Assembly: GCF_000018285.1 (NCBI RefSeq)
Contig: NC_009901.1
Span: 4,711,001 to 4,775,000, forward strand
From: Shewanella pealeana ATCC 700345
GTDB lineage: Bacteria > Pseudomonadota > Gammaproteobacteria > Enterobacterales > Shewanellaceae
DNA length: 64,000 bases
Direction of reading: 5' to 3'
The notes below the pieces were generated by a model. It worked only from the letters and a program-made list of their open reading frames with translations. It searched no databases and had not been told where the DNA came from. Below are positions 36,371 to 50,361 of the stretch, piece after piece (the first letter of the stretch is position 1; every line of letters begins with the position of its first letter). The position numbers and the translations under genes were made by a program.

Positions 36371-37669
36371 GTGAATTCAACGACCCCAATTGCGATAACT
36401 CATTTAGGTTTATGCACTCCTTTAGGGCTGACGCCTCAAGCTGTGCTCGACAACTTAATCGCGGGCAGTATCAATGGCATGCAGTGGCGAGATGATCTAT
36501 TGTTTGAGCGTGCCGTGTTGGTTGGTCAAGTCGATGTCCAATTGCCCGCTATTCCAGCAACTTTAAAGCGGTTTGATACCCGTAATAATCAGCTGACTCT
36601 GCTCATTGCCCAGCAAATTGAACCAGCCGTCGAGCAGGCCAAGCGCCAATATGGCAACCAGCGGATTGGCCTAGTTATCGGCACCAGTACATCGGGCATT
36701 GCCACAGGTGAAGCTGCGCTTGCAGTGCAACAGCGTTCAGGGGAGTTTCCTCAGGATTACGACTATGCCAAGCAGGAGTTAGGCGACACCAGCCAGTTTC
36801 TACAGGCCTACTTTAATTTGAGCGGCCCATGCTATACCGTCTCGACCGCTTGCTCATCAAGCGCTAAAGTCTTTGCCAGTGCCAAGCGCCTTATCGATGC
36901 CGGCATCTGCGATATGGTGATTGTCGGCGGCATCGACACCCTGTGCCAGCTCACCCTTAACGGCTTCTACTCCCTCGAATCTATCTCTAGCGGGCACTGC
37001 CAACCCTTTAGCGCCAATCGTGACGGTATCAATATTGGTGAAGGCGGTGCACTCTTTACCCTAGAAAAAGCAGTCCACAAGGGTGACAAAAAGGCGATAA
37101 TTCTCAGTGGTATAGGCGAGTCGAGCGACGCCCACCATATCTCGGCGCCGCATCCTGAAGGACAAGGCGCCATCACTGCCATGCAAGCAGCACTTAATAT
37201 GGCAGGTTTACAGCCAGAGCAGATCGATTACCTTAACCTGCATGGCACAGCGACCCCAAAAAATGACGCCATGGAGAGCCGCGCAGTGCAGCAAGTGTTT
37301 AGCAATAGCTTGCCAGCATGCAGCTCAACTAAGCCACTAACAGGGCACACCTTAGGCGCTACAGGTGCAATCGAAGCGGCGTTTTGTTATCTACTACTCA
37401 GTGATTACAATAAGCAGCAATATTTACCGCCACAGATTTGGGATCAAGAGCAAGATCCTAATGACCCTAGCCTGCCGCTGGTCGCAAAAGGCCAGCAGGC
37501 CAACATTCGCCACGTGATGAGCAACTCTTTTGCCTTTGGCGGCAGCAATGCCAGCCTGATCTTGAGCCGAAGCGGATCAAATAACGAAGCGCTAAAGAAT
37601 ACAGCACTAAAAATTAAAGCCTTAAAAAATATAGTCAGTGACGCAACAGAGACAAGCCAAGATGTTTGA
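36371..37669 (+). CDS. apeO: Ketosynthase, catalytic partner of the chain length factor
   Basis: 432 residues with a full FabF-like triad: Cys161 (STACSSSAK), His291 (LHGTATPK) and His326 (PLTGHTLGA). It extends the aryl starter with malonyl units as a heterodimer with ApeC, encoded at the operon start. GTG is the start, with GTGGAT as ribosome site. There is a 22-nt gap upstream, one of only three gaps in the operon, and an 8-nt overlap with apeP. The last 25 residues are an unusual Lys/Asn/Ala-rich tail with three repeats of the ALK(N)- type. Confidence 0.9.
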   Translation: MNSTTPIAITHLGLCTPLGLTPQAVLDNLIAGSINGMQWRDDLLFERAVLVGQVDVQLPAIPATLKRFDTRNNQLTLLIAQQIEPAVEQAKRQYGNQRIGLVIGTSTSGIATGEAALAVQQRSGEFPQDYDYAKQELGDTSQFLQAYFNLSGPCYTVSTACSSSAKVFASAKRLIDAGICDMVIVGGIDTLCQLTLNGFYSLESISSGHCQPFSANRDGINIGEGGALFTLEKAVHKGDKKAIILSGIGESSDAHHISAPHPEGQGAITAMQAALNMAGLQPEQIDYLNLHGTATPKNDAMESRAVQQVFSNSLPACSSTKPLTGHTLGATGAIEAAFCYLLLSDYNKQQYLPPQIWDQEQDPNDPSLPLVAKGQQANIRHVMSNSFAFGGSNASLILSRSGSNNEALKNTALKIKALKNIVSDATETSQDV

Positions 37670-38138
37670 TATTACAAAGCTTGCAGAGCAAGAGGTGGAA
37701 AAGTTTATCCCCCATCGCCAGCCGATGATCTTAATCAGCCAGCTACTTAAGCATAGCCATGATAGCTTGCTAACCCAGACAGATATTTCAGCCTCAAGCC
37801 CCTACTTCGATGCCGATATTAACGGTGTTCCCAACTATGTTGGTATCGAGTATATGGCGCAAAGCATCGCCGCACTGGCAGGCGTTGAAGCCCATCTAAG
37901 GAATGATATTATTCGCGTGGGATTTCTATTAGGCAGCCGCAAACTTAAGATGCATATCTCACAGTTTGATGCAGGGCAAACCTACCAGACTCGCGTCACC
38001 CGCCTCTATCAGGAAGAGTCTGGATTGGCGGTATTCGATTGCCAGATATTACATAACCAAGTGGTCGTCGCCGAAGCCAATGTGAATGTGTTTCAGCCCC
38101 AAGATGCTCAGGCTTATATTGCCGGAACGACCGACTGA
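37662..38138 (+). CDS. apeP: 3-hydroxyacyl-ACP dehydratase partner subunit
   Basis: 158 residues from ATG 37662; an upstream in-frame GTG (37638) lacks a ribosome site. FabZ/FabA-like hotdog with FIPHRQPMILISQLL and GIEYMAQSIAALAG. E63 matches the catalytic acid of FabZ, but the usual His position in the GHFP motif is a Phe here. This is complementary to ApeI, which keeps the His. A shared heterodimer active site is therefore inferred, in line with the ApeI/ApeP pairing described for APE pathways. Confidence 0.85.
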   Translation: MFDITKLAEQEVEKFIPHRQPMILISQLLKHSHDSLLTQTDISASSPYFDADINGVPNYVGIEYMAQSIAALAGVEAHLRNDIIRVGFLLGSRKLKMHISQFDAGQTYQTRVTRLYQEESGLAVFDCQILHNQVVVAEANVNVFQPQDAQAYIAGTTD

Positions 38139-38216
38139 TAAATTGACAAGACACAGCCGTAGCACCAAACATAACAACGTTTTCCAGAACAAGGCGGCTA
38201 CGCAGGGAGTAACAGT

Positions 38217-38942
38217 ATGACCAAAAGAGTATTAATCACAGGCTCAAGCCGCGGCATAGGCAAGGCCATTGCTCTGAAGTTGGCCGCCTCTGGCTTTGAT
38301 ATTGCGATGCATTTTCATAGTAATCAAATCGCAGCCGATGCCACTAAGGCAGAGCTTCAACAGCTTGGTATCAAGGTCAGCTGTCTGCAGTTTGATATCG
38401 CCGCCAGAGCCGCGGTAAAGCAAGCGATTGAACAAGATATCGAGCAACACGGCGCATACTATGGCGTGGTGCTCAATGCCGGCATCAATGCCGATACAGC
38501 CTTCCCTGCGATGACCGAATCCGAATGGGACAGCGTCGTTCATACCAACTTAGATGGGTTCTATAACGTTATTCATCCGACTGTGATGCCTATGGTGCAA
38601 GGTCGTCAAGGCGGGCGGATCATTACCCTAGCGTCGGTATCTGGTATTGCCGGTAACCGTGGTCAAGTGAACTACAGCGCATCTAAAGCCGGTATTATCG
38701 GCGCAACTAAGGCGCTGTCTTTGGAGCTAGCTAAGCGAAAAATTACCGTAAACTGCATCGCACCGGGTCTTATCGAGACCGACATGGTCAGTGATATTCC
38801 CAAAGAGATGGTCAATACTATCGTACCTATGCGCCGCATGGGTAAGCCATCTGAAATTGCAGGTTTGGCCAATTACTTGATGTCAGAAGATGCCGCCTAT
38901 ATCACTCGCCAAGTGATCTCGGTTAATGGAGGCATGATATGA
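38217..38942 (+). CDS. apeQ: 3-ketoacyl-ACP reductase (FabG-like SDR)
   Basis: 241 residues of the short-chain dehydrogenase family. The NADPH-binding motif is TGSSRGIG (9-15 region), then LNAG, and the catalytic set is Ser140, Tyr153 and Lys157 (NYSASKAG). It reduces the 3-keto intermediate in every elongation cycle. A 78-nt spacer separates it from apeP, the largest gap in the operon, and a GGAGT ribosome site precedes the ATG. The end overlaps apeR by 4 nt. Confidence 0.9.
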   Translation: MTKRVLITGSSRGIGKAIALKLAASGFDIAMHFHSNQIAADATKAELQQLGIKVSCLQFDIAARAAVKQAIEQDIEQHGAYYGVVLNAGINADTAFPAMTESEWDSVVHTNLDGFYNVIHPTVMPMVQGRQGGRIITLASVSGIAGNRGQVNYSASKAGIIGATKALSLELAKRKITVNCIAPGLIETDMVSDIPKEMVNTIVPMRRMGKPSEIAGLANYLMSEDAAYITRQVISVNGGMI

Positions 38943-40186
38943 GCCAAGCGTCTTTTCCCCGTCGCGTCGTGATCACAGGTATTGGCGGTATTTCGGCTCT
39001 AGGGCATGACTGGCCAACGATTGCTGAGAGCTTAAAAGCGAAAAAGAACTGTGTAGTGCGTATGGATGAATGGGACAGATTTGAAGATCTACACACCCGT
39101 TTAGCCGCGCCCATTACCGACTTTGAAGTGCCGAGCCATTACAAACGTAAAAAGATCCGCTCCATGGGCCGCGTATCTATTATGGCCACCCGTGCCAGTG
39201 AACTGGCACTGATAGATGCTAACCTGCTTGATGATCCTGTGGTCACCTCTGGCGCCATGGGCATAGCCTACGGCTCATCGACTGGCAGCACGGATCCAAT
39301 TGTTGCCTTTGGCGACATGCTTAAAGACGGTGATATGTCGGGTGTTACCGCCACCAGCTATATCCGCATGATGGCCCATACAACGGCGGTGAACGTCGGT
39401 GTATTCTTCGGGCTCAAGGGCCGAGTGCACACCACCAGCAGCGCTTGTACCTCAGGTAGCCAAGGCATAGGTTACGCCTATGAAGCCATCAAGTATGGTC
39501 AGCAAGACCTCATGCTTGCCGGCGGCGGTGAGGAGCTTTGCCCAACAGAGGCGGTAGTCTTCGACACCCTGTTTGCTACCAGCACCAAAAATGATACGCC
39601 AGCGCAGACACCACGCCCGTTCGATAAAAACCGTGACGGTCTAGTAATAGGCGAAGGCGCTTGTACATTAGTGCTAGAGGAGCTGGAACATGCTAGAGCT
39701 CGCGGCGCCAAGATCTACGCCGAAATCGTCGGCTTTGGCACGAATGCCGACGGTCTTCATGTGACTCAGCCTAATAGCGCGACCATGGAAACTGCAATTC
39801 GTTTAGCGCTGAAAGATGCCGCCATCGACGCTGAAAAAGTAGGTTATGTGAATGCCCACGGCACCGCGACCGACCGCGGCGATATTGCCGAGACACAAGC
39901 GACCCACGCGGTATTTGGCCCTTCTCAGCCTATCTCGTCGCTCAAGAGCTACACTGGCCATACGCTGGGAGCCTGCGGCGCGTTAGAGGCCTGGGTCAGC
40001 ATTGAGATGATGAATGAAGGCTGGTTCGCACCCACGCTAAATCTCAGCGAAATCGATGAAGAATGTGGAGAACTGGATTACATCAAAGATGAAGTCCGCT
40101 TGCTTGAAACTGACTATGTGATGAGTAATAACTTCGCCTTCGGTGGCATCAATACCTCGCTGATCTTTAAGCGGTTTAAAAGATAG
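38939..40186 (+). CDS. apeR: Second ketosynthase (FabF-like)
   Basis: 415 residues with the triad Cys170 (SSACTSGSQ), His307 (NAHGTATD) and His341 (YTGHTLGA). It differs from ApeO in the flanks of the active site (IRMMAHTTAVNVGVFFG). It may perform the first condensation on the aryl starter or supply another chain; the literature on APE synthesis assigns it a separate role from the ApeO-ApeC pair. It is the last gene of the operon. Directly after its stop codon begins a CCTAGG-rich repeat. Confidence 0.9.
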   Translation: MSQASFPRRVVITGIGGISALGHDWPTIAESLKAKKNCVVRMDEWDRFEDLHTRLAAPITDFEVPSHYKRKKIRSMGRVSIMATRASELALIDANLLDDPVVTSGAMGIAYGSSTGSTDPIVAFGDMLKDGDMSGVTATSYIRMMAHTTAVNVGVFFGLKGRVHTTSSACTSGSQGIGYAYEAIKYGQQDLMLAGGGEELCPTEAVVFDTLFATSTKNDTPAQTPRPFDKNRDGLVIGEGACTLVLEELEHARARGAKIYAEIVGFGTNADGLHVTQPNSATMETAIRLALKDAAIDAEKVGYVNAHGTATDRGDIAETQATHAVFGPSQPISSLKSYTGHTLGACGALEAWVSIEMMNEGWFAPTLNLSEIDEECGELDYIKDEVRLLETDYVMSNNFAFGGINTSLIFKRFKR

Positions 40187-40500
40187 GCTCTAGGAATAGA
40201 AGGTGCTAGGTCCTAGGAAATGCTAAGAAAGGTCCTAGGGAAAGCAAAGACGAACGTGACTAGGTCACTTACGGAACGCTTCGCTTAGGGAAAAGATGGG
40301 AAAAGCAGGTCCTAGGTAAAGCCGGAAAAGCATGTTTTTTCTGTAGGTTGGGCTTTAGCCCATCAAGCTTAGATTTCATATCAGATTTGACGGCATAAAT
40401 GCCGACCTACAGAACCACTTTTTGCTGTTCCTAGCAGGGCGTAGCCCGTCCTCGAAGCGCAGCGTTCTAGGATCTAGGTTCGAGATCATAAGTTCTAGGT
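40187..40500 (+). repeat. CCTAGG-rich mosaic repeat, copy 1 (after apeR)
   Basis: Begins at the first base after the apeR stop. It has many CTAGG words (for example GGTCCTAGG, GGTGCTAGG), the hairpin GTGACTAGGTCAC (40256-40268), a core CTTACGGAACGCTTCGCTTA (40268-40287) followed by GGGAAAAGATGGGAAAAG, an inserted REP pair, and CCCGTCCTCGAAGCGCAGCG near 40446. The same blocks, in the same order, occur in copies 2 and 3. No coding frame. Confidence 0.75.
40339..40414. repeat. BIME-like pair of inverted REP units
   Basis: Outer inverted repeat TTCTGTAGGT (40339-40348) and ACCTACAGAA (40405-40414). Inside each arm is a hairpin, GGGCTTTAGCCC (40350-40361) and CGGCATAAATGCCG (40391-40404). The two units are similar and face each other, as in REP/BIME elements. 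A single related unit occurs near 47622-47640. Confidence 0.7.
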
Positions 40501-40530
40501 AACCCAGCATAAGCTGGGTTCTTTGTTTTA
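40501..40530 (+). terminator. Intrinsic terminator downstream of the APE operon
   Basis: Perfect 8-bp stem AACCCAGC/GCTGGGTT (40501-40508 with 40513-40520), loop ATAA, then CTTTGTTTTA. It is 315 nt after apeR, beyond the repeat, so the operon transcript would include the repeat. Confidence 0.75.
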
Positions 40531-40539
40531 AAGCCATAA

Positions 40540-40634
40540 ACCACGAAGCGCTCACTTCGCTCGCTACACAGAGACCTCGGAGAAGAGAAAAATCTCAAGG
40601 CTCTTTTCTTCGTGCTCTTCGCGTCCTTCGTGGT
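40540..40634. repeat. CGAAG-rich element with terminal inverted repeats
   Basis: ACCACGAAG at 40540-40548 is matched by CTTCGTGGT at 40626-40634. The right part is built of CTTCG words (TTCTTCGTGCTCTTCGCG). Such 'accacgaagg' elements recur in intergenic DNA of many bacteria; here there is a single copy. Confidence 0.5.
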
Positions 40635-40800
40635 CCACTCTTATCTTTCGAAGTCATATTGTTAACGAACACAAAACAAGCATTAGGAAAAACTTATTGA
40701 AATTAATCTAATTAAAGGTTTAAATATCCGCACAAGTTTTGTTCAGATAGCTTCAAACAAAACCCAACAAAATCCAAGAGCATAATAAATAGAGGTGGAT
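40635..40800. other. AT-rich leader upstream of the rhodanese gene
   Basis: The remainder of the 614-nt gap after apeR. It is AT-rich, presumably contains the rhodanese promoter, and ends with the AGAGGTGG ribosome site. No other element recognised. Confidence 0.35.
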
Positions 40801-41127
40801 ATGTTAAACACTCAAATTTCAAAGTTAACGACTAGACCAGCTGGTGAGCAGTGCTGGCAACTGATACAAGAAGGTGCAACGGTTATCGATGTGCGCTCGC
40901 CACAGGAGTTTGCAGGCGGTCATCTACCGCAAGCGATTAATGTACCTTTAGACACCTTAGATACTTGGCTGCACAAGCTTGAAAATCGTCAGCAAGTGTT
41001 TGTGCTTTATTGCGGAGCGGGCATTCGCGCCCAAAAGGGCTGCGATATTTTAATGGCGAATGGATTAGAGAGCGTGATTAATGGCGGTGCTTTAAAAGAT
41101 CTACTCAGCTGTCAGCCAAAGCAGTAA
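40801..41127 (+). CDS. Single-domain rhodanese (sulfurtransferase)
   Basis: 108 residues from ATG 40801, chosen for the AGAGGTGG ribosome site; an in-frame GTG six bases earlier is less likely. Rhodanese features are VIDVRSPQEFAGGHLPQAIN and the active-site loop YCGAGIRAQKG with Cys71. It moves sulfane sulfur, from thiosulfate or a protein persulfide, to an acceptor. No signal peptide, so cytoplasmic (GlpE-like rather than PspE-like). It is alone on the plus strand, convergent with the thioesterase gene 17 nt away. Confidence 0.88.
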   Translation: MLNTQISKLTTRPAGEQCWQLIQEGATVIDVRSPQEFAGGHLPQAINVPLDTLDTWLHKLENRQQVFVLYCGAGIRAQKGCDILMANGLESVINGGALKDLLSCQPKQ

Positions 41128-41144
41128 TACTAATCGAGATAAAC

Positions 41145-41594
41145 TTACTTGGCCTTGCTAACATATAGCCCAGAGAAACTGGCGCACTGCTTATCTTTGC
41201 AATAAAGCTCGACCTCTATACGCACCTTTACTCGGCGACCTAATGCGAGCTTTGATAGGTCACACTCAGGCCATTTAACCTTAGCAATTGGCTGACTGTC
41301 GATGGGGGCAATATAACGCACATTGGCGTCAGCCAAGACGATATCACCATCCAGCCCTGCCAACTTCTGTTGCAGCCATAACATGCCCCAACCTGTCAGC
41401 GTCATAAGAGTATAAATACTGCCAGCAAACATGGTGTTATGCAGATTAATGTTAGGCTCTAGCGGAGCTGAAACCTCAAAAGTATCACCATCAAATGCCA
41501 AGGGGGCTATCTGCATAAACTCACTAACAGGTATGGTTTGATGCCAAGTCTGCTGCAGTTGTTCTAGCAAGGTTTGATGGTTTAAATCTTTCAT
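41145..41594 (-). CDS. YiiD C-terminal-type hotdog thioesterase
   Basis: 149 residues. The stretch FEVSAPLEPNINLHNTMFAGSIYTLMTLTGWGMLWL is the signature of the YiiD_C (FabY) hotdog domain, which keeps the N...N-H-x-T-x-F-A-G pattern. It lacks the N-terminal acetyltransferase domain found in E. coli YiiD. In E. coli yiiD lies next to dtd and yihY, as here. Members act on acyl thioesters and have been linked to fatty acid initiation; the activity here is not known. Confidence 0.8.
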   Translation of the reverse strand: MKDLNHQTLLEQLQQTWHQTIPVSEFMQIAPLAFDGDTFEVSAPLEPNINLHNTMFAGSIYTLMTLTGWGMLWLQQKLAGLDGDIVLADANVRYIAPIDSQPIAKVKWPECDLSKLALGRRVKVRIEVELYCKDKQCASFSGLYVSKAK

Positions 41595-41643
41595 CTGCTT
41601 TCCTGTTCTAGCTCTTATAATCCCCGTAGTCCGACCTAGATAT

Positions 41644-42081
41644 CTAAACCTGCAAATTAAAAGTCACTGGGCCGTCGTTAACTAAAGACACTTTCATATC
41701 TGCGGCAAATTGACCGGTTTGGGTGTTGACCCCTTTTGATTTACAAAAATCGACAAAGGCTTCATAAAGTTCACGGGCTTGATCTGGTGTGCCGGCGCCT
41801 GAAAAGCTTGGGCGTAAGCCTCGGCCAGTATCGGCTGCCAAGGTAAATTGCGAGACCACAAGTAAGCTGCCACCCGCTTGCTCAAGGTTAAGATTCATCT
41901 TGCCATTCTCATCGGAAAACACACGGTAACTCATCACCTTAGTGGCCAACTTTTGCATCTTTTCAATGTTATCCTCGCGCTCAACACCGAGTAACACCAA
42001 CAGACCTTTATCGATCTCACCGATAGTCGCGCCATCAACGACAACTTTTGCTTCACTCACACGTTGAATAAGGGCTATCAC
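41644..42081 (-). CDS. dtd: D-aminoacyl-tRNA deacylase
   Basis: 145 residues, exactly the usual length. It removes D-amino acids from mischarged tRNA. Motifs: [17 protein letters not shown], the SQFTLAAD active-site strand, and VNDGPVTF near the C-terminus with the cross-subunit GP motif. It belongs to the yihY-pip-lipoprotein-dtd-yiiD run on the minus strand, though a 344-nt repeat-filled gap separates it from the lipoprotein gene. Confidence 0.96.
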
Positions 42082-42100
42082 CTACACACTCTCCAAAAAA

Positions 42101-42425
42101 ATTAATAACTGAAATGAAAAAGCGAAGACGAACGCTTCGCTTTAAAAGAAGGACCTAGATCCTAGGACGCTTCGCTTCGAGGACGGACTTAATAAACAAG
42201 GTACTAGGCCCTAGGGCGCTGCGCTTCGAGGACGGACTGCGTCCTACTAGGAAGAGCAAAAGCAAAAAACATCACCTTTGCCCTCTCTTAGCTTTTCCGG
42301 CTTTTCCCATCTTTTCCGTAAGCGCAGCGTTCCGTAAGGCCGAAGGCCATTCGTCTTGTACCGTCTTAGCCTTTGCTTTCCCTAGGACCTGCTTTTCCTA
42401 GGACCTTTCCTAGAACCTTCTTTCT
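42101..42425 (-). repeat. CCTAGG-rich mosaic repeat, copy 2 (after the lipoprotein gene)
   Basis: Inverted relative to copies 1 and 3. Read on the minus strand it starts right after the stop codon at 42426 with AGAAGGTTCTAGG, continues through GGTCCTAGG words, a GGCCTTCGGCC hairpin (42338-42348), the core CTTACGGAACGCTGCGCTTA, then GAAAAGATGGGAAAAG, and two copies of a CCGTCCTCGAAGCG block with CCTAGG flanks. It ends with a hairpin AAAGCGAAG/CTTCGCTTT (42119-42143) about 40 nt from dtd. It fills almost the whole gap; no gene is seen in it. Confidence 0.75.
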
Positions 42426-43007
42426 TTAAATCGACTGAATATTCTGCATCACTGGAATTGGCTTAATCACATCTTCTGCGCCTTTAGGTAGAGACTCACC
42501 AACCTGACGTAAGCCTTCATCTGTCCATAAGATAAATCGACGCAACTCTTCCATGGTGATGGTATCTACGAATGTTGCCGCACCTTGTACCTGAATAACC
42601 GCACCTTGATCACGAATAACAAACTTGGCGAAATTAAGCTTCTGGTTCAAGGTGCCAATCATCAGCAACATCTCTTTGCTGCCAACATACTTAGGATGAA
42701 TCGCATAAAAGCGGTTCATCATGATGCGGTCAATACCATCAGGGTTGATGCTAGGCTGCAGAATAAACTGGCTATTATCGAAGTTAACGGCAACGCCGTT
42801 AGGACCCGCCCGAGATGCTAAATAACTTTTACTTAGCAGTGCATCTAGCAGCTTAGTGGTCGCCTCTTCATTAGACAAACCGCCTAAATCCACACTGTCA
42901 GGCGCTTTGACTGCGACCTCTACTTCTGCTGTTTTTTCAGTAGAAGCACAAGCTGTTAGGCCCATAGTTAAGCCAATAGTTAAGCCTGTAAGAATCAGTT
43001 TTTTCAT
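42426..43007 (-). CDS. Lipoprotein of unknown function
   Basis: 193 residues from ATG 43007. The signal peptide MKKLILTGLTIGLTMGLTAC ends in a lipobox (LTAC), so the mature N-terminal Cys is lipidated. The longer frame beginning at 43055 would overlap pip and spoil the signal peptide. The mature domain is mixed alpha/beta (FILQPSINPDGIDRIMMNRFYAIHP is cut short here) with no motif I recognise. An AAGGAAA ribosome site is 10 nt upstream. It follows pip by 19 nt and is probably cotranscribed with it. Confidence 0.72.
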   Translation of the reverse strand: MKKLILTGLTIGLTMGLTACASTEKTAEVEVAVKAPDSVDLGGLSNEEATTKLLDALLSKSYLASRAGPNGVAVNFDNSQFILQPSINPDGIDRIMMNRFYAIHPKYVGSKEMLLMIGTLNQKLNFAKFVIRDQGAVIQVQGAATFVDTITMEELRRFILWTDEGLRQVGESLPKGAEDVIKPIPVMQNIQSI

Positions 43008-43026
43008 AGCGTCTATATTTCCTTGT

Positions 43027-43959
43027 TTATTGTTTGGCCATTTCCCGTATGGCATCCTTTACCGCTTTAGCCATCTTAACATCGGCCAAAGCGTGATACC
43101 CGCCTTTAATCTCTGTCACTTTAACTAACTGACTCGCCCTGCCTTTAAAGAAGTCTTGTAACACCTTAAAGGGGCAAACCCAGTCCATTTCACCTTGCAG
43201 TACGTATGTTTGACACTGAATCAAAGGCAATTTAACGATGAGTTTTTCAAATGCACCAAAGTAATCATTAGCTACATAATAAAGCTCTATGCTTGCTAGA
43301 GACTGACTGAAAGGTGTATTGGCCTCGCCGAGCATACTGCCCGGATAGGCTAAAGCCATTTCCCAACTGAGCCAGTGTGCGGTAGCATCATGCCGAATTT
43401 CTTGGCACTCATTCTCTAACTTTGATCGATAATGTGCGAGTAAAACCTCGAGCTCTTGGCATTCAACACCCTGAGTGAAAGCGCGATATTCATCTATAAA
43501 CAAACGAGCTGCACCGCTATTACCATAGAGCCATTCTATGCCTGCGGGGTTAGGGATAAACAAGCCCCACAGCACTTGTGATATCACTCGATTAGGGTAA
43601 CAGGCAGAATAAAGTAGGGCTAAGGTTGCACCAAATGAGCCACCGGCAAGCATCCATTGAGGAACATTAAGCCAACAACGAACCCGCTCTATATCATCCA
43701 GTAAAGTGTGCAAATTATTATGCTTAAGTTCACCGCGGGGACGAGAACGCCCCGCCCCCCGCTGATCGAGCAAAATAACCTGATAGACTGACAGGTCGAA
43801 TAGTTTTAAATCTTCTGTGCTACAACCCGCTCCCGGCCCACCATGCAAATACAGCAGTGGTATCCCGTTCGGATTACCGTACTGGGCTACATATATTTGG
43901 TGGTCATCTCCAACATCTAGCCAGGTTCGGCTAAGGAGTGGCGACTGCACTGCAGACAT
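43027..43959 (-). CDS. pip: Proline iminopeptidase (alpha/beta hydrolase)
   Basis: 310 residues. It removes N-terminal proline from peptides. Motifs: the oxyanion loop YLHGGPGAGCS, LLDQRGAGRSRPRGE and the nucleophile elbow GGSFGATLAL, with the C-terminal histidine in KGGYHALAD. Cytoplasmic, no signal peptide. It shares one base with the upstream yihY-like gene, so the two are translationally coupled. Confidence 0.9.
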   Translation of the reverse strand: MSAVQSPLLSRTWLDVGDDHQIYVAQYGNPNGIPLLYLHGGPGAGCSTEDLKLFDLSVYQVILLDQRGAGRSRPRGELKHNNLHTLLDDIERVRCWLNVPQWMLAGGSFGATLALLYSACYPNRVISQVLWGLFIPNPAGIEWLYGNSGAARLFIDEYRAFTQGVECQELEVLLAHYRSKLENECQEIRHDATAHWLSWEMALAYPGSMLGEANTPFSQSLASIELYYVANDYFGAFEKLIVKLPLIQCQTYVLQGEMDWVCPFKVLQDFFKGRASQLVKVTEIKGGYHALADVKMAKAVKDAIREMAKQ

Positions 43960-44981
43960 TAATCCAGCTTGTCCTGTTTATCTTGGGCTGGCTCATCAGT
44001 TTTCTCACTGCCTCTGACGTTGTCTTGACCACTATCATTGCTACTATTTGGGCCATCATTCTTTGATTCAGTCACCGGCTCTTCGGTTTTAGTTTCTGCT
44101 TGAGATTCCGCTAACGCGGTTTCACGGATCAACTTACACTCATGCAGGTACTCAGGTAGTCCTGCGGTTATTTCTGCGCCGACGAGTACGATGACCCAAG
44201 AAACATAGACCCAAACAAACAGGATAGGAATGGTCGCTAAGGCACCATAAATCGCCTCGTAACTGGGGAATTGAGTCACGTAAAAGGCAAAGCCTTTCTT
44301 GCCTAGCTCAAACAGCATGGCTGCGACTAACGCACCTAGCAAGGCATGCAGAAACTTAACCTTTTTAATCGGAACGACCATATACAGGAGCAAGAAGGCG
44401 GCCACTGAAAATAGCATAGGTAAACGCTCTATCAGTATTGGCACCACACCTGAAAGCTCGGTTTCACTAAATAACTTTAATGACACAATATAGGATGTCG
44501 CCACCAAGCTGGCGCCCACGAGTACAGGCCCTAAAGTCAGCACCATCCAATACATGGAAAAAGACACCGCAGCCTGACGCTTCTCTTTGGTGCGCCAAAT
44601 ACTGTTGAGCGCCTTATCGATAGCCGAGATCAGCATCAGTGCCACCACCATTAACGCCACGATCCCCACACTCGTGCCCTTAGATGCGTTAGCGACAAAT
44701 TCATTGATGTAGATCTGCACCGTATCGCCAGCGGCTGGCAGAAAGTTGTCGTAGACAAAACCCTCTAACTTTTCACGAATACCTGAAAATACGGGGAAAG
44801 CGGACAACATAGAAAACATCACAGCCACAATAGGCACCAAAGATAATAAGGTCACATAAGCCAAGTGCCCGGCCTTAATATTGACTTGGTCCTCTTTGAA
44901 GCGACTGAGTAGATGTAAGAAAAATGCCCAAATGCTCAGTAAAAAAGAACGAACCTGATTTATCGCTATCTTATTTTTCAC
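43959..44981 (-). CDS. yihY: YihY/BrkB-family inner-membrane protein
   Basis: 340 residues with about six membrane helices. Family phrases are [36 protein letters not shown] and [18 protein letters not shown]. The old ribonuclease BN label for this family is not supported by its membrane topology. The last 60 residues are a charged Glu/Lys/Ser/Asp-rich tail, probably disordered and cytoplasmic. The order yihY-pip-lipoprotein-dtd-yiiD-like extends the E. coli yihY-dtd-yiiD neighbourhood. Confidence 0.9.
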
Positions 44982-45114
44982 TTGTTACTCTTGATTCTGT
45001 TAAAGTTGGTCTTAATCGGTAATACCAATCAGTATAAGACGATAAATGATCTGCGAATCATTATCTTGGTACAATAAAGCTTATAACCTTCTCTTTACAA
45101 GCATAAGGATTGAA

Positions 45115-45342
45115 ATGATGTCTCAACAAGGATCTGCGGGCAATGTCATTGCCGCTATCGCGAGCTTTTTCTTCGCTGGATTAGGCCAACTCGTTCAGGG
45201 GCGTATACTCGCTGCCATTCTCTTTTGTTTAACCACCTATGCCGCATACGGTATTGCCTCTTTCACGTTAGGCATATTTTTAATTATCGCAATACCTTTA
45301 CACATTTGGTGCATTATTGACGCAGCAAGATACCGTGCGTAG
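45115..45342 (+). CDS. Small two-helix membrane protein (TM2-like)
   Basis: 75 residues from ATG 45115 (or ATG 45118), selected for the AAGGA ribosome site; the longer frame from 45046 has a polar N-terminus without support. Two hydrophobic stretches: VIAAIASFFFAGLGQLVQGR and FTLGIFLIIAIPLHIWCIID, with GLGQLVQG as in TM2-like small proteins. Function unknown. It lies 30 nt before the DUF2959 lipoprotein gene and is probably cotranscribed. Confidence 0.7.
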   Translation: MMSQQGSAGNVIAAIASFFFAGLGQLVQGRILAAILFCLTTYAAYGIASFTLGIFLIIAIPLHIWCIIDAARYRA

Positions 45343-45372
45343 TCACTCACTAAATTTTAGGGATAAAACCAG

Positions 45373-46020
45373 ATGAAAAAATTGATCACCAGCGCCATTG
45401 TTGGCACTAGCCTACTGCTTGGTGGCTGCCAGAGCGCTTATTACGGTGCGATGGAAAAAGTGGGTTATCACAAGCGCGATATCATGGTCGATCGCGTCGA
45501 AGATGCTAAAGAGTCGCAAGAAGAAGCCCAAGAGCAGTTCAGCTCTGCACTGGAAGAGATGCAGGCGCTGCTAAATCATGATGGTGGCGATTTAGAAGGA
45601 GCTTACAACAAAGCAAAAGATGAATATGAGTCGGCGCAAGATGCCGCCGATGATGTCACCAATCGCATCGACAAGGTAGAAGATGTTGCCGAGGCATTAT
45701 TTGACGAGTGGCAAACAGAGATAGGTGAGATCAGCAAAGCCAGCTTGCGTCGTAATAGTGAGTCAAAACTCAAAGAGACTCGCCGTTCATACTCTCAGCT
45801 TGTTAAAAGCATGCGCCGCGCAGAAAGTAAGATGGAACCAGTGCTAACTGCGATGAAAGATAACATGTTGTATCTAAAGCATAACCTTAACGCTCAAGCT
45901 ATTGGGGCGATTAAGGGGGAGTTCGCGAGCCTACAGACTGATATCTCAGGCTTAATCAAAGAGATGAATAAGTCTATTGATGAATCGAACAAGTTTATCG
46001 CTTCGTTAGAAAATAAATAA
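45373..46020 (+). CDS. DUF2959 lipoprotein
   Basis: 215 residues. Signal peptide ending LLLGGC (lipobox). The mature protein is nearly all helical and charged, with long coiled-coil-like segments (for example EDAKESQEEAQEQFSSALEE). The opening YYGAMEKVGYHKRDIMVDRV is the DUF2959 signature. Function unknown; probably periplasm-facing and anchored in the outer membrane (residue +2 is Gln). Confidence 0.85.
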   Translation: MKKLITSAIVGTSLLLGGCQSAYYGAMEKVGYHKRDIMVDRVEDAKESQEEAQEQFSSALEEMQALLNHDGGDLEGAYNKAKDEYESAQDAADDVTNRIDKVEDVAEALFDEWQTEIGEISKASLRRNSESKLKETRRSYSQLVKSMRRAESKMEPVLTAMKDNMLYLKHNLNAQAIGAIKGEFASLQTDISGLIKEMNKSIDESNKFIASLENK

Positions 46021-46036
46021 GCAGCATCTAAAGTGC

Positions 46037-46064
46037 GGTTCCTAAGCGTGAACGCTCAGGAACC
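46037..46064 (+). other. Hairpin after the DUF2959 gene
   Basis: GGTTCCTAAGCG pairs with CGCTCAGGAACC (46037-46048 with 46053-46064, one mismatch), loop TGAA. There is no T-run behind it, so it may be a weak terminator or an mRNA 3' stabiliser. Confidence 0.4.
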
Positions 46065-46203
46065 AAACTTGTGATCTACTGCTGCCTTTTTCCATATCAC
46101 AATTCCATTTTTTGATCTTCTCCACAAGCCGTGTAGCAACTCAGAACTTATTCCCCTTTGCAGTTTCTCAATTATATCAATCATATTTTAACTGACGCTA
46201 TTT

Positions 46204-47418
46204 ATGAGCTTTATTGAATCATTAACTCTTGCCCTAGCGCTGACCTATAGCGTTAGCCTACTTTATTGGAGCGGCAAGAAATGGGGCGCATTCGCCACTG
46301 GCGGGCTCATTACTGGAGCTATTATTTCTAGCCTATATTGGCCTCTCATCGCCGCGCTGGGTATCGCAGTTATCGGTATCGCGATAGGCCGCAAATTCCA
46401 ACCTACAGTTGCCCAAGGTGAATTGCGCGCTAATCATATGCGAGATGGCGTGCAGCACTTGCTCGCCTTATCCATGCTACTGGTTGGCGTACAGTTTACG
46501 GTCAACAGCGCGCTGCTAAAGGCTGGGATAACCCCGTGGCTGATGCGACCCGATGTTGGCGATGCCTTCCTGCCTATTGCTGGCGGTATTGAGATAAAGG
46601 CGATTATCAGCTTGGGAATATGGGACCAAAATCATCCTGCTGCTGCGGTTATGCTAACGGTTGTTTTACTCACAGGCCTACTGTGTAAACGTGCCTTTTG
46701 CGGCTGGGCCTGCCCGTTAGGCTTAGCAGGTGAATATCTGTATAAGCTCAGAAAGCGTTTTATCAAGCAAGAGCTACTCCCTCCAGCTTGGATAGACTGG
46801 CCACTGCGGATGCTCAAATACCTGTTATTGCTGGCCTTGCTATACATTGTCCTCGGTATGCCTACCATGAGTATCCCCGGCTATTTAAACAGTAATTACC
46901 ATAAGATTGCCGATCTTAAGATGGCGCTATTTTTCATCACCCCAGGCTTAGTCACACTTATCTGCTTCGGCATTATTTTGGGTCTAGCAGCCTGGCGTCG
47001 CCAAGGCTTTTGCCGCTATATCTGTCCCTACGGCGCGCTGCTTGGCCTGCTCAGTTTCTTAAGCCCACTTAAGATCCGTCGCAGTACCCAGCACTGCTTA
47101 ATCGAATCAAAAGGCATGAATTGCGACAAGTGCAGCCGCGCCTGCCCGGCTAATATCTCGGTGCATAATCAGATAAACATTCGCTCAGACGAGTGCCAAG
47201 CCTGCATGCGCTGTATATCGGCCTGCCCTAAGAAAGAGGCACTACACTTTAGCACTCGCAACGGCTGGAAACTCTCGGCTCGCGGCCTAACGATTATGTT
47301 ATTCGCCATCATGTTCCTATTGCCGCTTTTCGCTTACCTTGGTGGCTTCTGGCACAGTGAAACACCTGTTGAAGCACGCATGTATTTGATTCAACATCTG
47401 GATAGGATTGGGCATTAA
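46204..47418 (+). CDS. NapH/NosR-like 4Fe-4S membrane protein
   Basis: 404 residues with about eight membrane helices. Two cysteine clusters in the membrane part, KRAFCGWACPLGLAGE and CRYICPYGALLG, are typical of the NapH/NosR/RdxA group. Two ferredoxin-type motifs near the C-terminus (CDKCSRACP and CQACMRCISACP) hold two [4Fe-4S] clusters. Such proteins pass electrons between the quinol pool and periplasmic or maturation partners. No nap or nos genes are nearby, so the partner is not known. Starts with ATG 46204 and no strong ribosome site. A mosaic repeat starts right after the stop codon. Confidence 0.85.
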   Translation: MSFIESLTLALALTYSVSLLYWSGKKWGAFATGGLITGAIISSLYWPLIAALGIAVIGIAIGRKFQPTVAQGELRANHMRDGVQHLLALSMLLVGVQFTVNSALLKAGITPWLMRPDVGDAFLPIAGGIEIKAIISLGIWDQNHPAAAVMLTVVLLTGLLCKRAFCGWACPLGLAGEYLYKLRKRFIKQELLPPAWIDWPLRMLKYLLLLALLYIVLGMPTMSIPGYLNSNYHKIADLKMALFFITPGLVTLICFGIILGLAAWRRQGFCRYICPYGALLGLLSFLSPLKIRRSTQHCLIESKGMNCDKCSRACPANISVHNQINIRSDECQACMRCISACPKKEALHFSTRNGWKLSARGLTIMLFAIMFLLPLFAYLGGFWHSETPVEARMYLIQHLDRIGH

Positions 47419-47680
47419 TGGAAGGTTCTAGGAATAGAAGGTTCTAGGCCCTAGGAAAAGCAGGGAAAGGCTAAGACGATAATAGCCGAACGGCCTGCGG
47501 CCTAGAGAACGTGACTACGTCACTTACGGAGCGCTGCGCTTAGGAAAAAGATGGGAAAGGTAAAGAAAGGTCCTAGGTGCTAGGGAAAGCTAAGACGGGA
47601 AAGTATATTTTGCAGTAGCTTGGGCTTTAGCCCGTCCTCGAAGCGCAGCGCCCTAGGAGCTAGGTACTTCTTTTAAAGCT
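47419..47680 (+). repeat. CCTAGG-rich mosaic repeat, copy 3 (after the Fe-S protein gene)
   Basis: Starts at the base after the stop codon with GGAAGGTTCTAGG and repeats that word. It has CCCTAGG and GGTCCTAGG words, the hairpins GGCCTGCGGCC (47492-47502) and GTGACTACGTCAC (47511-47523), the core CTTACGGAGCGCTGCGCTTA, then AAAGATGGGAAAGG, and near its end AGCCCGTCCTCGAAGCGCAG. Block order matches copies 1 and 2. A REP-like GGGCTTTAGCCC hairpin lies at about 47628-47639. Confidence 0.75.
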
Positions 47681-47711
47681 AAGGAAAGGCCCGCCCATGG
47701 ATGGGCAGGCT
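47680..47711 (-). terminator. Probable terminator of pdxY
   Basis: GCC-C-GCCCAT pairs with ATGGGC-A-GGC (47689-47710) with a 2-nt loop and one mismatch. On the minus strand it is followed by CTTTCCTT, a modest T-rich tail, about 45 nt downstream of pdxY. Confidence 0.5.
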
Positions 47712-47753
47712 CATTACATTCCGCCTATTAATTTCTATACGAATAAACTTGAA

Positions 47754-48617
47754 TTAGTTAACTCGTTTAGCCTGCTGCTTAATTGTCGGTGATGCTATGG
47801 CATCTTGAGCGGCGATTAATTGCAGCTCATAAGCGCCTTGGTTAAAGGTCTCCAATAACACGGCGTCGACTGAGGCATTAGTGCGCTCAAAGGCGTCTAC
47901 CGGGCTAAAACCTGCTTGCAGGTTAGCTAACATCAAGCCACTGATTAAATCACCGACGCCCACAGGTTGTTTTTCAAATTCATATAAAGGACGCGAGACT
48001 AAGTAACTGCCTGTCTTTGTCACCAGCAGCATCTCAAACTGTTCTTGGCAAGTGGCGGCCTTAGCAAGGTGCTTCACCACTACCATCTCAAGCCCTTTTT
48101 CTAGCAAGCATTCACAAGCGTTAATCACTTCATCGAGATTATGCAGTTCTGTATCCGTTAATGTCTCAAGCTCTAACAGGTTAGGCGCTATAATGTCGGC
48201 TGCAGCCAAAGCTTGAGTTTTTAAGAACTCCTGTACACCGGGCGACACAATACAACCTTTTTCAGGGTGGCCCATTACCGGATCGCAAAAATAGATAGCA
48301 TGCGGGTTAAGCGCTTTCATCTTTTTCACGGCTGCCGTGATTTCAATGCCTTGCTCTGCGCTACCGAGATAACCACTGAGTAAAGCATCGCAGGTCTGTA
48401 GCTGACCAATATTATCTAGGCCCTGTACCAACTCAGTGATCTGACCCGCAGGCATGATCATCCCCGCCCATCCTTGTGCGTACTGAGTATGGTTAGAGAA
48501 CTGCACCGTATTAATCGGCCAAACCTCCATACCAAGACGACGCATAGGGAATACGGCACTACTGTTGCCAGCACAGCCAAATACCACATGGGATTGAATG
48601 GATAAAATCCGCTTCAT
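47754..48617 (-). CDS. pdxY: Pyridoxal kinase
   Basis: 287 residues, the same length as E. coli PdxY. It phosphorylates pyridoxal to PLP in the salvage pathway. The N-terminus [20 protein letters not shown] and [11 protein letters not shown] bind the substrate. YFCDPVMGH and the anion-hole phrase [14 protein letters not shown] (with the catalytic Asp) are ribokinase-family marks. Monocistronic, minus strand, bordered by a terminator-like hairpin. Confidence 0.95.
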
Positions 48618-48833
48618 TGGTCACTACCTTTAATTTTATTAGCGATGTTGATTGAGGGTGCTCTATTGCCGTTTATTGACAGCTAGCAGAGATTTTTAAC
48701 GATTATACCAATTAGGCTAAATTAGTATTCTCAAACTTAATCAACCTGTGAGCTATTACACTGATATTTGTACTGGGATTTACACTGAAAGTAGGCAATA
48801 GCCAACCAGAGACGCAATATGGGGTTACTTGAG

Positions 48834-48868
48834 GCATAAAAAAGCCCTTAAGAATTAATTAAGGGCTT
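48834..48868 (-). terminator. Intrinsic terminator of the DsbI-like gene
   Basis: 10-bp stem AAGCCCTTAA/TTAAGGGCTT (48842-48851 with 48859-48868). On the minus strand it is followed by a T6 run. It is 38 nt past the stop codon. Confidence 0.88.
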
Positions 48869-48906
48869 GGTATTCTCAAAGCAATTTATTGCATTGCTTT
48901 AAATGA

Positions 48907-50361
48907 TTAATGCTGAACTTGGTAGAAGTTAACTCGGTTATTACCTTCCGCCGCATCTAACACAGCAAACTTATCACCCAGTAATGTCATTGCTTGTGGG
49001 TTATTAAGCCCTACGACATCGCTTGCTGCAACAACAGTATTAGTCTCTAAATTCATGGTTAGCAGTTGCTGGCCAGAATGGCTTAACAAGTAAGCTTTAT
49101 CATCGATAACACTAATGCCAGTCACATTTGGATAAACCTGAGTATCAATGCTAATGATTGCTTCGCTGTTTAGCTCATAATCTTTACCGCTTAGACGTGA
49201 AACAACAAAGTTATTGCGCTGCTCATCTGGTAACGTGACCATTAGATACTCTTGAGTTTGAGCATCCCAACCTACGTCGGCAACATAGTTATACTTGGCA
49301 CGTACAGTGGCAAAGCGACTGCGTTTAAGCTCACGAACCCCGTCAGTTCCTTCGATGAATCGTCCGTAAGTATCATCAAACTTCACACTTGGGTCGTATT
49401 CAACACGCACAAAACTCTTATGATCGGCAGTCACTAAGACTGATGTTTGACCGTCAAAAGTCACACCTGCAAGGTTAGATATTTCAGCAGAGAATGCCGC
49501 ATCAATCTGCACCTTAGCCAAAATTTCAGTCAGCTCAGCATTCAGGAAATAAACCCAGTTATTACTGGTAACCACTGCAAATAGTTGGCTTTGAGGATTA
49601 TAGCTAATGCCTGTTGCTAGACCGAAGATATCAGCTGGCAAAGTAACACTCTCAAGCGCTGTTAACTCGCCGTTAGCCGTCACTTTAGTCGCATCATCCT
49701 TTGTCATAGCCGCAAAGTCAGGCTTCTCGATTGAGTAAGCACCACGAGCCGATAGCTTTGACAGTGTTGGCCAATTAGCCGTAGACCAGATCGTTTTATT
49801 CGAATCGAAGGTCATACGCACAGGATCGCTTTGGCCGATATATGGGAATGGACCAGTCTGGGTAAATGCCTGAACGATATTAAAACAAATAATGACCAAG
49901 AATACGTTAACCGTTACCTTGTTCAGCAAGCTCCACTCACTGCTGTCACTCTTCTCAACTAGCTTGTCGCCTTGTAGCAACATTAGTACGCCAGCGAACA
50001 GTAAGATAATCGCAAACACTACGATCACCCAAACATAGGTGTGTACGCCAAAAATGGCCGGACCAAAGCCTTGGCCAATATCACGAAGAATATGTGCAGA
50101 GCTATGACGGTAACCCGCCCACAAGCCGTACACAGCAGTAATGATTAGCGCGCCAATATACTTAGGCTTTAAACCGTAACGCATGATAAAAATCGCGATC
50201 AGCGATACTAGCACCATAGCTGTACGCTCTTGCCAACAAAGGATACATGGCGTGTCACCCATACCAAAACCTAAGATGATACAGGCGATACCGACTGGTA
50301 AGGCTATCAGCGCTAAAGCCGCTAATGATACAACTCTGTTTAACGTTAATTCATTCATCAT
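48907..50361 (-). CDS. dsbI: DsbI-type thiol oxidoreductase with C-terminal propeller-like domain
   Basis: 484 residues in two parts. The first about 170 form a five-helix DsbB-like membrane domain with the redox motif C39-ILC-42 in DTPCILCWQERTA. The second periplasmic cysteine pair of classical DsbB is absent: the only other cysteines, C27 and C159, are inside membrane helices. Residues about 175-484 are a periplasmic beta-rich domain with repeated blade-like segments (GISYNPQSQLFAVVTSNN, AGVTFDGQTSVLVT, TGISVIDDKAYLLS). This layout matches DsbI proteins of epsilonproteobacteria, where a small accessory protein is encoded upstream, as here. It would link quinones to a thiol partner; the partner is not known. 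Confidence 0.82.
   Translation of the reverse strand: MMNELTLNRVVSLAALALIALPVGIACIILGFGMGDTPCILCWQERTAMVLVSLIAIFIMRYGLKPKYIGALIITAVYGLWAGYRHSSAHILRDIGQGFGPAIFGVHTYVWVIVVFAIILLFAGVLMLLQGDKLVEKSDSSEWSLLNKVTVNVFLVIICFNIVQAFTQTGPFPYIGQSDPVRMTFDSNKTIWSTANWPTLSKLSARGAYSIEKPDFAAMTKDDATKVTANGELTALESVTLPADIFGLATGISYNPQSQLFAVVTSNNWVYFLNAELTEILAKVQIDAAFSAEISNLAGVTFDGQTSVLVTADHKSFVRVEYDPSVKFDDTYGRFIEGTDGVRELKRSRFATVRAKYNYVADVGWDAQTQEYLMVTLPDEQRNNFVVSRLSGKDYELNSEAIISIDTQVYPNVTGISVIDDKAYLLSHSGQQLLTMNLETNTVVAASDVVGLNNPQAMTLLGDKFAVLDAAEGNNRVNFYQVQH

Follow-up and report, generated by a model that had tools for sequence, protein, structure and literature searches.

Three copies of a CCTAGG-rich mosaic repeat occur in a 64,000-nucleotide stretch of Shewanella pealeana ATCC 700345 (NC_009901.1, positions 4,711,001 to 4,775,000; this whole stretch is the window), and each of them touches or adjoins the stop codon of a gene, at a distance of no more than about 8 nt. 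The copies were found approximately where the original prediction, made from the letters of the window, had put them. The question raised by this locus is how a repeat comes to lie so closely at the ends of genes. We slightly favor the explanation that a modular, stop-abutting family spread by copying between the 3' ends of nearby genes, with built-in stop codons allowing a harmless landing; the family is likely to be an old selfish element with stop codons of its own that undergoes local copying. Sequence comparison demonstrates the placement at stop codons, the scarcity in divergent gaps and, at some genes, the supply of C-terminal codons together with the stop.

Occurrence of the family and its position relative to genes

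In the genome of S. pealeana, whose single chromosome of 5,174,581 bases (G000) contains the window, the family numbers dozens of repeats, all modular and imperfectly palindromic. When copy 1 of the window was used as a blast query against its own genome, 73 matches were obtained. The core of the repeat was present 25 times with up to 2 mismatches, compared with 0 times for the reversed-pattern control; the word GGTYCTAGG was found 263 times (56 in the control) and the end word AAAGAAGGTNCTAGG, with up to 1 mismatch, 77 times (2 in the control). These copy numbers are lower bounds; 100 of the 263 GGTYCTAGG matches were used for choosing the stretches to be analyzed, and stretches beyond 2.83 Mb were picked via the copy 1 blast and the core matches, later via the end word.

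The placement of the copies was determined in gaps of at least 20 nt, and a gap was counted as filled when it held at least 4 CTAG and at least 90 vocabulary bases. After gaps with fewer than 90 vocabulary bases or too few CTAG had been dropped, 56 to 58 of the 73 listed were kept. Among the 245 gaps in the S. pealeana stretches, copies filled 33 of 163 tandem gaps, 22 of 42 convergent gaps and 1 of 40 divergent gaps. In the tandem gaps, the upstream stop was nearer to the copy in 30 cases and the next start in 3, with median distances of 2 nt to the stop and 36 nt to the start; 25 of the 33 copies lay within 15 nt of the stop, and for 11 of the 33 the start was no farther than 15 nt away as well. 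When positions were drawn uniformly from the free space of 32 gaps, none of 20000 draws reached the observed value.

The same link to gene ends was seen elsewhere. Across 28 Shewanella loci from other genomes in the contig collection, some of them orthologous to S. pealeana sites, the copy lay closer to the stop in 23 of 24 tandem gaps, at a median of 1.5 nt, and 1 of 19 divergent gaps contained a copy. Ten fresh end-word matches on the chromosome, representing 8 previously unused sites by our count, were also examined, and 6 of the 8 copies touched a stop or lay within 6 nt of it. One of the ten was a chance match inside a gene, two belonged to one copy in a divergent gap and six were at stops (the one at 839810 reversed); at the tenth, 4393294, the heptamer array of the gap starts within the stop codon and the copy carrying the match lies farther off. 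Random position relative to genes, which had been named as the outcome that would speak against a stop-linked family, is not what these data indicate: the association is strong, and it replicates in other genomes and mostly in previously unused sites.

The orientation of the copies gave a different picture. The original prediction held that each copy is oriented like its gene, and this is true of all three copies in the window. Genome-wide, 16 copies in the 25 callable tandem gaps were co-oriented and 9 were not (p = 0.23), which gives no significant support for a gene-orientation rule; convergent gaps are uninformative in this respect. Cluster orientation was assigned by vote, which performs poorly for palindromic copies. 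Since the element is a long imperfect palindrome that folds back on itself, much of it looks alike in either orientation. Outside 1.6-1.76 Mb, a hand count gave 13 co-oriented copies versus 3, for a split that was chosen post hoc.

With regard to distribution, a search with the core at up to 1 mismatch was positive in 30 of 97 Shewanella genomes (S. pealeana included), and seven of the 97 (G000, G016, G053, G069, G072, G076 and G080) contained 12 to 16 cores each. The exact 19-nt core was found in 3 of 394 genomes drawn from the order, namely S. pealeana, a second Shewanella (G004) and Vibrio rhodolitus. In the contig collection it was found in 30 stretches, all from Shewanella except one from V. 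rhodolitus and one from a Saprospiraceae metagenome record. The latter contig (L195:2510-2670), which is metagenome-assembled, carries arrays of the word CGTAAGCGCAGCG containing the core; these may reflect convergence or a misplaced contig. Along the S. pealeana chromosome, copies are clustered at about 0.3-1.0, 1.6-1.76, 3.9-4.13 and 4.7-5.15 Mb. By eye, the interval 1.76-3.89 Mb, approximately 41% of the chromosome, holds just 5 of the 77 end-word matches, one of which is a chance match inside a gene.

Stop codons, C-termini and the history of the sites

Words of the repeat reach into coding sequence. With element words defined as 10-mers present in at least two other copies, an intrusion of at least 6 nt was seen at 20 of the 81 stops flanking element gaps versus 6 of 211 other genes; for an intrusion of at least 12 nt, the counts were 10 and 4, respectively. 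Individual cases were compared with relatives, with the frames read by eye. In S. pealeana the ketoacyl synthase upstream of copy 1 ends in FKRFKR*, encoded by the end word TTTAAAAGATAGG, and in relatives without a copy it ends in FKRWQD* (G032, G059), FKRWKD* (G002) or FKKW.. (G077, G021, G019). An O-antigen-ligase-like gene (1735201-1736448) ends ..ALKEGARL* within the element, and its protein is 17 to 21 residues longer in G077, G032 and G059. The end of a rhamnose-epimerase-like gene (1725678-1726247), AEKVLGSRESRS*, is composed wholly of repeat words, and the counterpart in G059 and G032 is KDRAAMA*; at the 4131576 site, the C-terminus NWGEKVLG* of the G076 protein lies in element words. 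Judged from these comparisons, a stop codon is often supplied by the repeat, a point unseen by the original prediction, and the adjacency to stops is partly self-made because the repeat brings stop codons with it.

The fronts of the copies were assessed for the first stop in the worst frame, which was located at a median of 40 nt and a mean of 53 nt versus 77 nt in shuffled sequence, and was lower than in the shuffles in 43 of 56 copies. The 7-nt period of the TAG words, together with the TAA in the end word, would close all frames soon after entry into the repeat. In addition, the stop context TTTAA occurred at 11 of 56 element-adjacent stops versus 16 of 234 others (p = 0.008). This enrichment was rejected as proof of targeting because the element itself carries TTTAA. 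A further reading, which we consider possible but somewhat unlikely, is that of a self-stopping parasite with stops in every frame, which homes via TTTAA-like ends, rewrites C-termini and is re-copied between neighbors, the word systems of Shewanella and Vibrio being related and of one design.

The history of 14 sites was followed in 12 relatives; two sites had no comparable gap, and the genomes that could be aligned varied from site to site. The orthologous sites proved to be empty, filled or rearranged among relatives, in the comparison that had been suggested at the outset. In the element-rich genomes most sites were filled, in G077 and G059 some of them, and in G032 1 of 8. In G021 and G019, two of the window sites were empty and the third held a variant copy; G002 was empty where it was readable, and G016 lacked a copy after the ketoacyl synthase. 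Orthologous copies shared 18-20% of their 10-mers and non-orthologous copies 8-10%. The best pair among 58 S. pealeana copies had 27% of 12-mers in common, and copy similarity dropped with chromosomal distance (rho -0.15; 1 of 2000 permutations was as low). These are old sites, shared between species, with modules that turn over and are homogenized locally; the modules are presumably gained, lost and exchanged through slippage and short-range recombination or conversion. A mobile passenger, one of the two possibilities offered by the original prediction, fits in the sense of ancient or local copying; a recent burst was not seen, because the best pair shares so few 12-mers and many sites are common across species.

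The clearest copying event is the AbgT site (4929085-4933159). Two tandem AbgT-type genes (4929085-4932858; L234:1386-5159) are 77.8% identical, with 47 of the last 60 nt matching, and the elements after their stops are identical at 96 of the first 103 nt (93%), with a one-base shift. Another copy, approximately 8 kb away, matches 64 nt of the post-AbgT element at 92%. Slippage was also evident. A pure 7-nt array, (CTAGAAC)23 of 23.3 copies, begins about 25 nt after a stop (L093:8319-8481), and similar 7-nt arrays are found in S. pealeana at 529042, 586382, 675494 and 1690692, the last of which begins in the stop codon. In G053, the copy at the lipoprotein site (L131) contains GGCCTTAC, an 8-nt unit repeated about 14 times. 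Growth in place from a local terminator or short seed, by slippage and hairpin-primed template switching and with no transfer between loci, is consistent with such arrays and is nevertheless very improbable, given that identical long words occur at dozens of unrelated loci and that the AbgT pair, in which element identity exceeds gene identity, weakens it further.

Several observations weigh against local copying of an element that carries its own stops. The ancestral stop position is retained at window copies 2 and 3 and at 4119013 and 4127789, and stop supply alone therefore cannot explain the adjacency; the remainder needs targeting or tolerance of 3' ends. At 4127789, which stands outside the 56 filled gaps, the gap between co-directional genes measures 14-15 nt in G032, G059 and G077 versus 377 nt in S. 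pealeana, where it is made of purine words and REPs with no CTAG. Stop trinucleotides in the first 150 nt were at the shuffled level (9.9 vs 9.6), which means that only the spacing of the stops is special. A full copy at 4110944 and the filled gap at 1722431 lie between divergent genes, and with a looser cut-off family words were found in 5 of 40 divergent gaps; the genes were called with our own codon-model script instead of curated annotation. No constant target-site duplication was noticed by eye at empty versus filled sites, the relatives being too diverged, and no junction was readable in closely related strains. The folding score was not below -2 in 13 of 47 copies. Lastly, neither the Y1_Tnp search nor inspection of the flanks of the S. 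pealeana Y1 gene tied a transposase or other copying enzyme to the family.

The copy at 4110944-4111069 (L231:3044-3170) is short and complete, adjoins AAAGTGTCCG repeats in its divergent gap and is the clearest exception to the stop rule; it is perhaps a minimal element.

A repeat with stops of its own would account for the settling of selfish DNA right behind functioning genes, and it would offer a measurable way for protein C-termini and 3' untranslated regions (3'-UTRs) to change between species. With orthologous sites that vary among a dozen genomes between empty, filled and rearranged states, insertion, turnover and effects on expression can be tested directly. For annotation, C-terminal tails such as AEKVLGSRESRS should be treated with caution as repeat-encoded.

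Structure, folding and candidate mobilizers

Read from the stop, by eye, a typical copy begins with the end word TTTAAAAGAAGG, followed by at least one GGTYCTAGG heptamer. The purine-rich 5' arm contains the words GGAAAAGC and GCTAAGACGG with the small hairpins GGCC.GGCC, GTGAC.GTCAC and CGCT.GCGCT; the small hairpins ACGGCCTGCGGCCT, ACGTGACTGCGTCACT and ACGCTGCGCT are connected via TTACGGA or AGGGA linkers. A GTAG-tagged REP-like palindrome is often found in the loop, and the pyrimidine-rich arm GCTTTTCCTAGCAGGGCGTAGCCCGTCCTCGAAGCGCAGCGTCCTAGGATCTAGGTCCTTCTTTTAAA comes afterwards. This 3' arm is roughly complementary to the 5' arm and terminates in CCTAGGWYCTAGGTCCTTCTTTTAAA. The element ends are TTTAAAAGAAGGTNCTAGG, and they form inverted repeats. 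When the window copies were read side by side, the exchangeable hairpin modules proposed earlier were visible by eye. The high density of CTAG in the copies was likewise confirmed (28.9 per kb inside the window copies vs 3.2 outside), whereas the premise that CTAG is rare in this DNA had to be given up as an argument: 200 were observed in the window outside the copies versus 220.9 expected under a Markov model.

Copy 1 (40175-40499, plus strand) starts with TTTAAAAGATAGG (40175-40187) within the final codons of the beta-ketoacyl synthase gene; the word contains the last codons and the TAG stop (40184-40186), and the effective start of the copy is inside the gene, which corrects the position given at first. 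The core CTTACGGAACGCTTCGCTTA, located by the core pattern search in all three copies, occupies 40268-40287 (chromosome 4751268-4751287). Two REP-like GTAG palindromes were recognized by eye at 40343-40364 and, inverted, at 40389-40410; the first belongs to the GTAG class described in PMC3733652. The right-arm block CCGTCCTCGAAGCGCAGCG is at 40446-40464. Copy 2 (42141-42430, minus strand) lies at the stop of a 209-aa lipoprotein-like gene (42426-43055, minus strand) and has TTTAAA at each end; on the same strand are its core (42319-42338; chromosome 4753319-4753338) and two instances of the right-arm block (42217-42235 and 42168-42186). Copy 3 (47419-47677, plus strand) begins at the first base after the stop of a 4Fe-4S protein gene (46204-47418), with the core at 47523-47542 (chromosome 4758523-4758542), a REP-like GTAG palindrome, seen by eye, at 47615-47636 and the right-arm block at 47632-47650, all on the plus strand. 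The ketoacyl synthase that precedes copy 1 is the last of a row of genes at 36371-40186 (ketoacyl synthase, dehydratase-like, FabG-like, ketoacyl synthase), an order that we take to resemble an aryl polyene type cluster.

The terminator scan placed a hairpin directly beyond each copy. Those immediately 3' of copy 1 (40501-40520, plus strand) and copy 2 (42143-42119, minus strand) are terminator-like on the same strand as the gene that precedes the copy, and the one beyond copy 3 (47710-47689), between convergent genes, is so on the opposite, minus strand only. Over the region, the scan gave 18 sites versus 10.4 in shuffles, and short CCTAGG hairpins within the copies were flagged too. At the lipoprotein site, the matching hairpin stands alone in G032, which has no copy; at the ketoacyl synthase and 4Fe-4S sites, the hairpins differ in relatives with an empty site. 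Five further S. pealeana copies begin, by eye, right after the T-tract of a terminator-like hairpin (417283, 997678, 1613243, 4838938 and 5153107). Because a terminator hairpin remains downstream, transcription is predicted to run through the copy, which would then form a folded 3'-UTR or intercistronic RNA; consequences for mRNA stability or for the expression of downstream genes are likewise a prediction.

A functional RNA under selection, which blocks 3' exonucleases or tunes the next gene as has been proposed for REP, would fit the location of the window copies, with a stop on one side and a terminator-like hairpin on the other, and the same sites are occupied across species. Folding points the same way: the z-scores of the window copies with some flank were -5.0, -3.2 and -2.3, and among 47 copies compared with 15 dinucleotide shuffles each, 34 were below -2 (median -3.75). 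However, arms paired no better within a copy than with the arms of other copies (44 copies; 2481 of 5000 permutations were as low), and this null result gives no sign of compensatory upkeep and no support for selection on the folding of single copies. The modules differ strongly even at orthologous sites, the gene is retained in relatives without a copy, and the 16 proteins scanned near copies had no common theme. We judge this explanation unlikely. Of the 3'-UTR element suggested by the original prediction, the location stands; a function was not demonstrated, and co-directional genes flank some of the copies.

A REP-derived or MITE-type element whose mobility depends on a RAYT or insertion-sequence transposase acting in trans is less probable still. 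Its attractions are the inverted-repeat ends and the GTAG-tagged palindromes within many copies, which in some form are recognizable by eye in each window copy; these palindromes are one of many modules, and they are missing from pure heptamer arrays. A Y1 transposase gene was found in 5 of the 7 element-rich genomes, but G053 and G069 had no Y1_Tnp match, and the 3.3 kb around the sole match in S. pealeana contained no clustered CTAG words, no GTAGGTYGG palindrome and no adjoining copy. A RAYT origin was accordingly set aside as unsupported. The six genes scanned beside or between copies, which represent part of all sites, encode a sugar dehydrogenase, an acetyltransferase, a DUF2802 protein, an epimerase, a MAPEG protein and the O-antigen-ligase-like protein, and none is a transposase. 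The 58 copies include no near-identical pair. In window positions 39000-49000, no match to an Rfam 15 covariance model was obtained up to E 0.5, and phage and plasmid collections searched with copy 3 yielded no relative.

Comparison with known repeat systems

The BIMEs and REP sequences of enterobacteria are mosaics of short palindromes outside genes. The Shewanella unit differs from them in being a composite of approximately 150-500 nt that has arms and linkers of its own, and the one RAYT-type gene found in S. pealeana is not beside a copy. The GTAG-tagged palindromes inside several copies resemble the GTAG/CGTC-tagged REPs of PMC3733652. The original prediction knew of no description of the family, and literature searches, including exact strings in open-licence PMC papers, gave none; the family is apparently undescribed.

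The nearest published behavior is that of the pneumococcal BOX elements (PMC3049150). There, the gene takes its stop codon from the repeat in 36 of 58 coding sequence overlaps, and strong evidence for truncated proteins was not found. Like BOX, the Shewanella repeat is modular, variable in length, palindromic and intergenic, favors convergent gaps and can provide the gene before it with a stop codon. It is set apart by its words, the density of CTAG heptamers being peculiar to the Shewanella family as far as the BOX description extends, and by one native tail that is replaced (the window ketoacyl synthase) and one that is shortened (the O-antigen-ligase-like gene). TRIP1 of E. coli (PMC10888264) is likewise an intergenic repeat downstream of genes; it measures 146-273 bp, occurs in zero to five copies per genome at 38-96 bp from stops and, in the passages considered, is not presented as a mosaic built from exchangeable words.

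V. rhodolitus (G233; L170:6960-7370, L208:1490-1660, L209, L212 and L224) has the exact core TTACGGAACGCTGCGCTTA and 7-nt arrays in common with Shewanella. Its words come after a stop codon at four of the five loci inspected, the fifth being ambiguous, with a terminator-like hairpin behind one of them; it differs in its heptamer, TTATCCG, and its linkers, and CTAG heptamers were absent from the stretches inspected. These arrays suggest a wider class of post-stop word mosaics. The Shewanella family behaves like BOX or the BIMEs of E. coli, with words and an architecture of its own.

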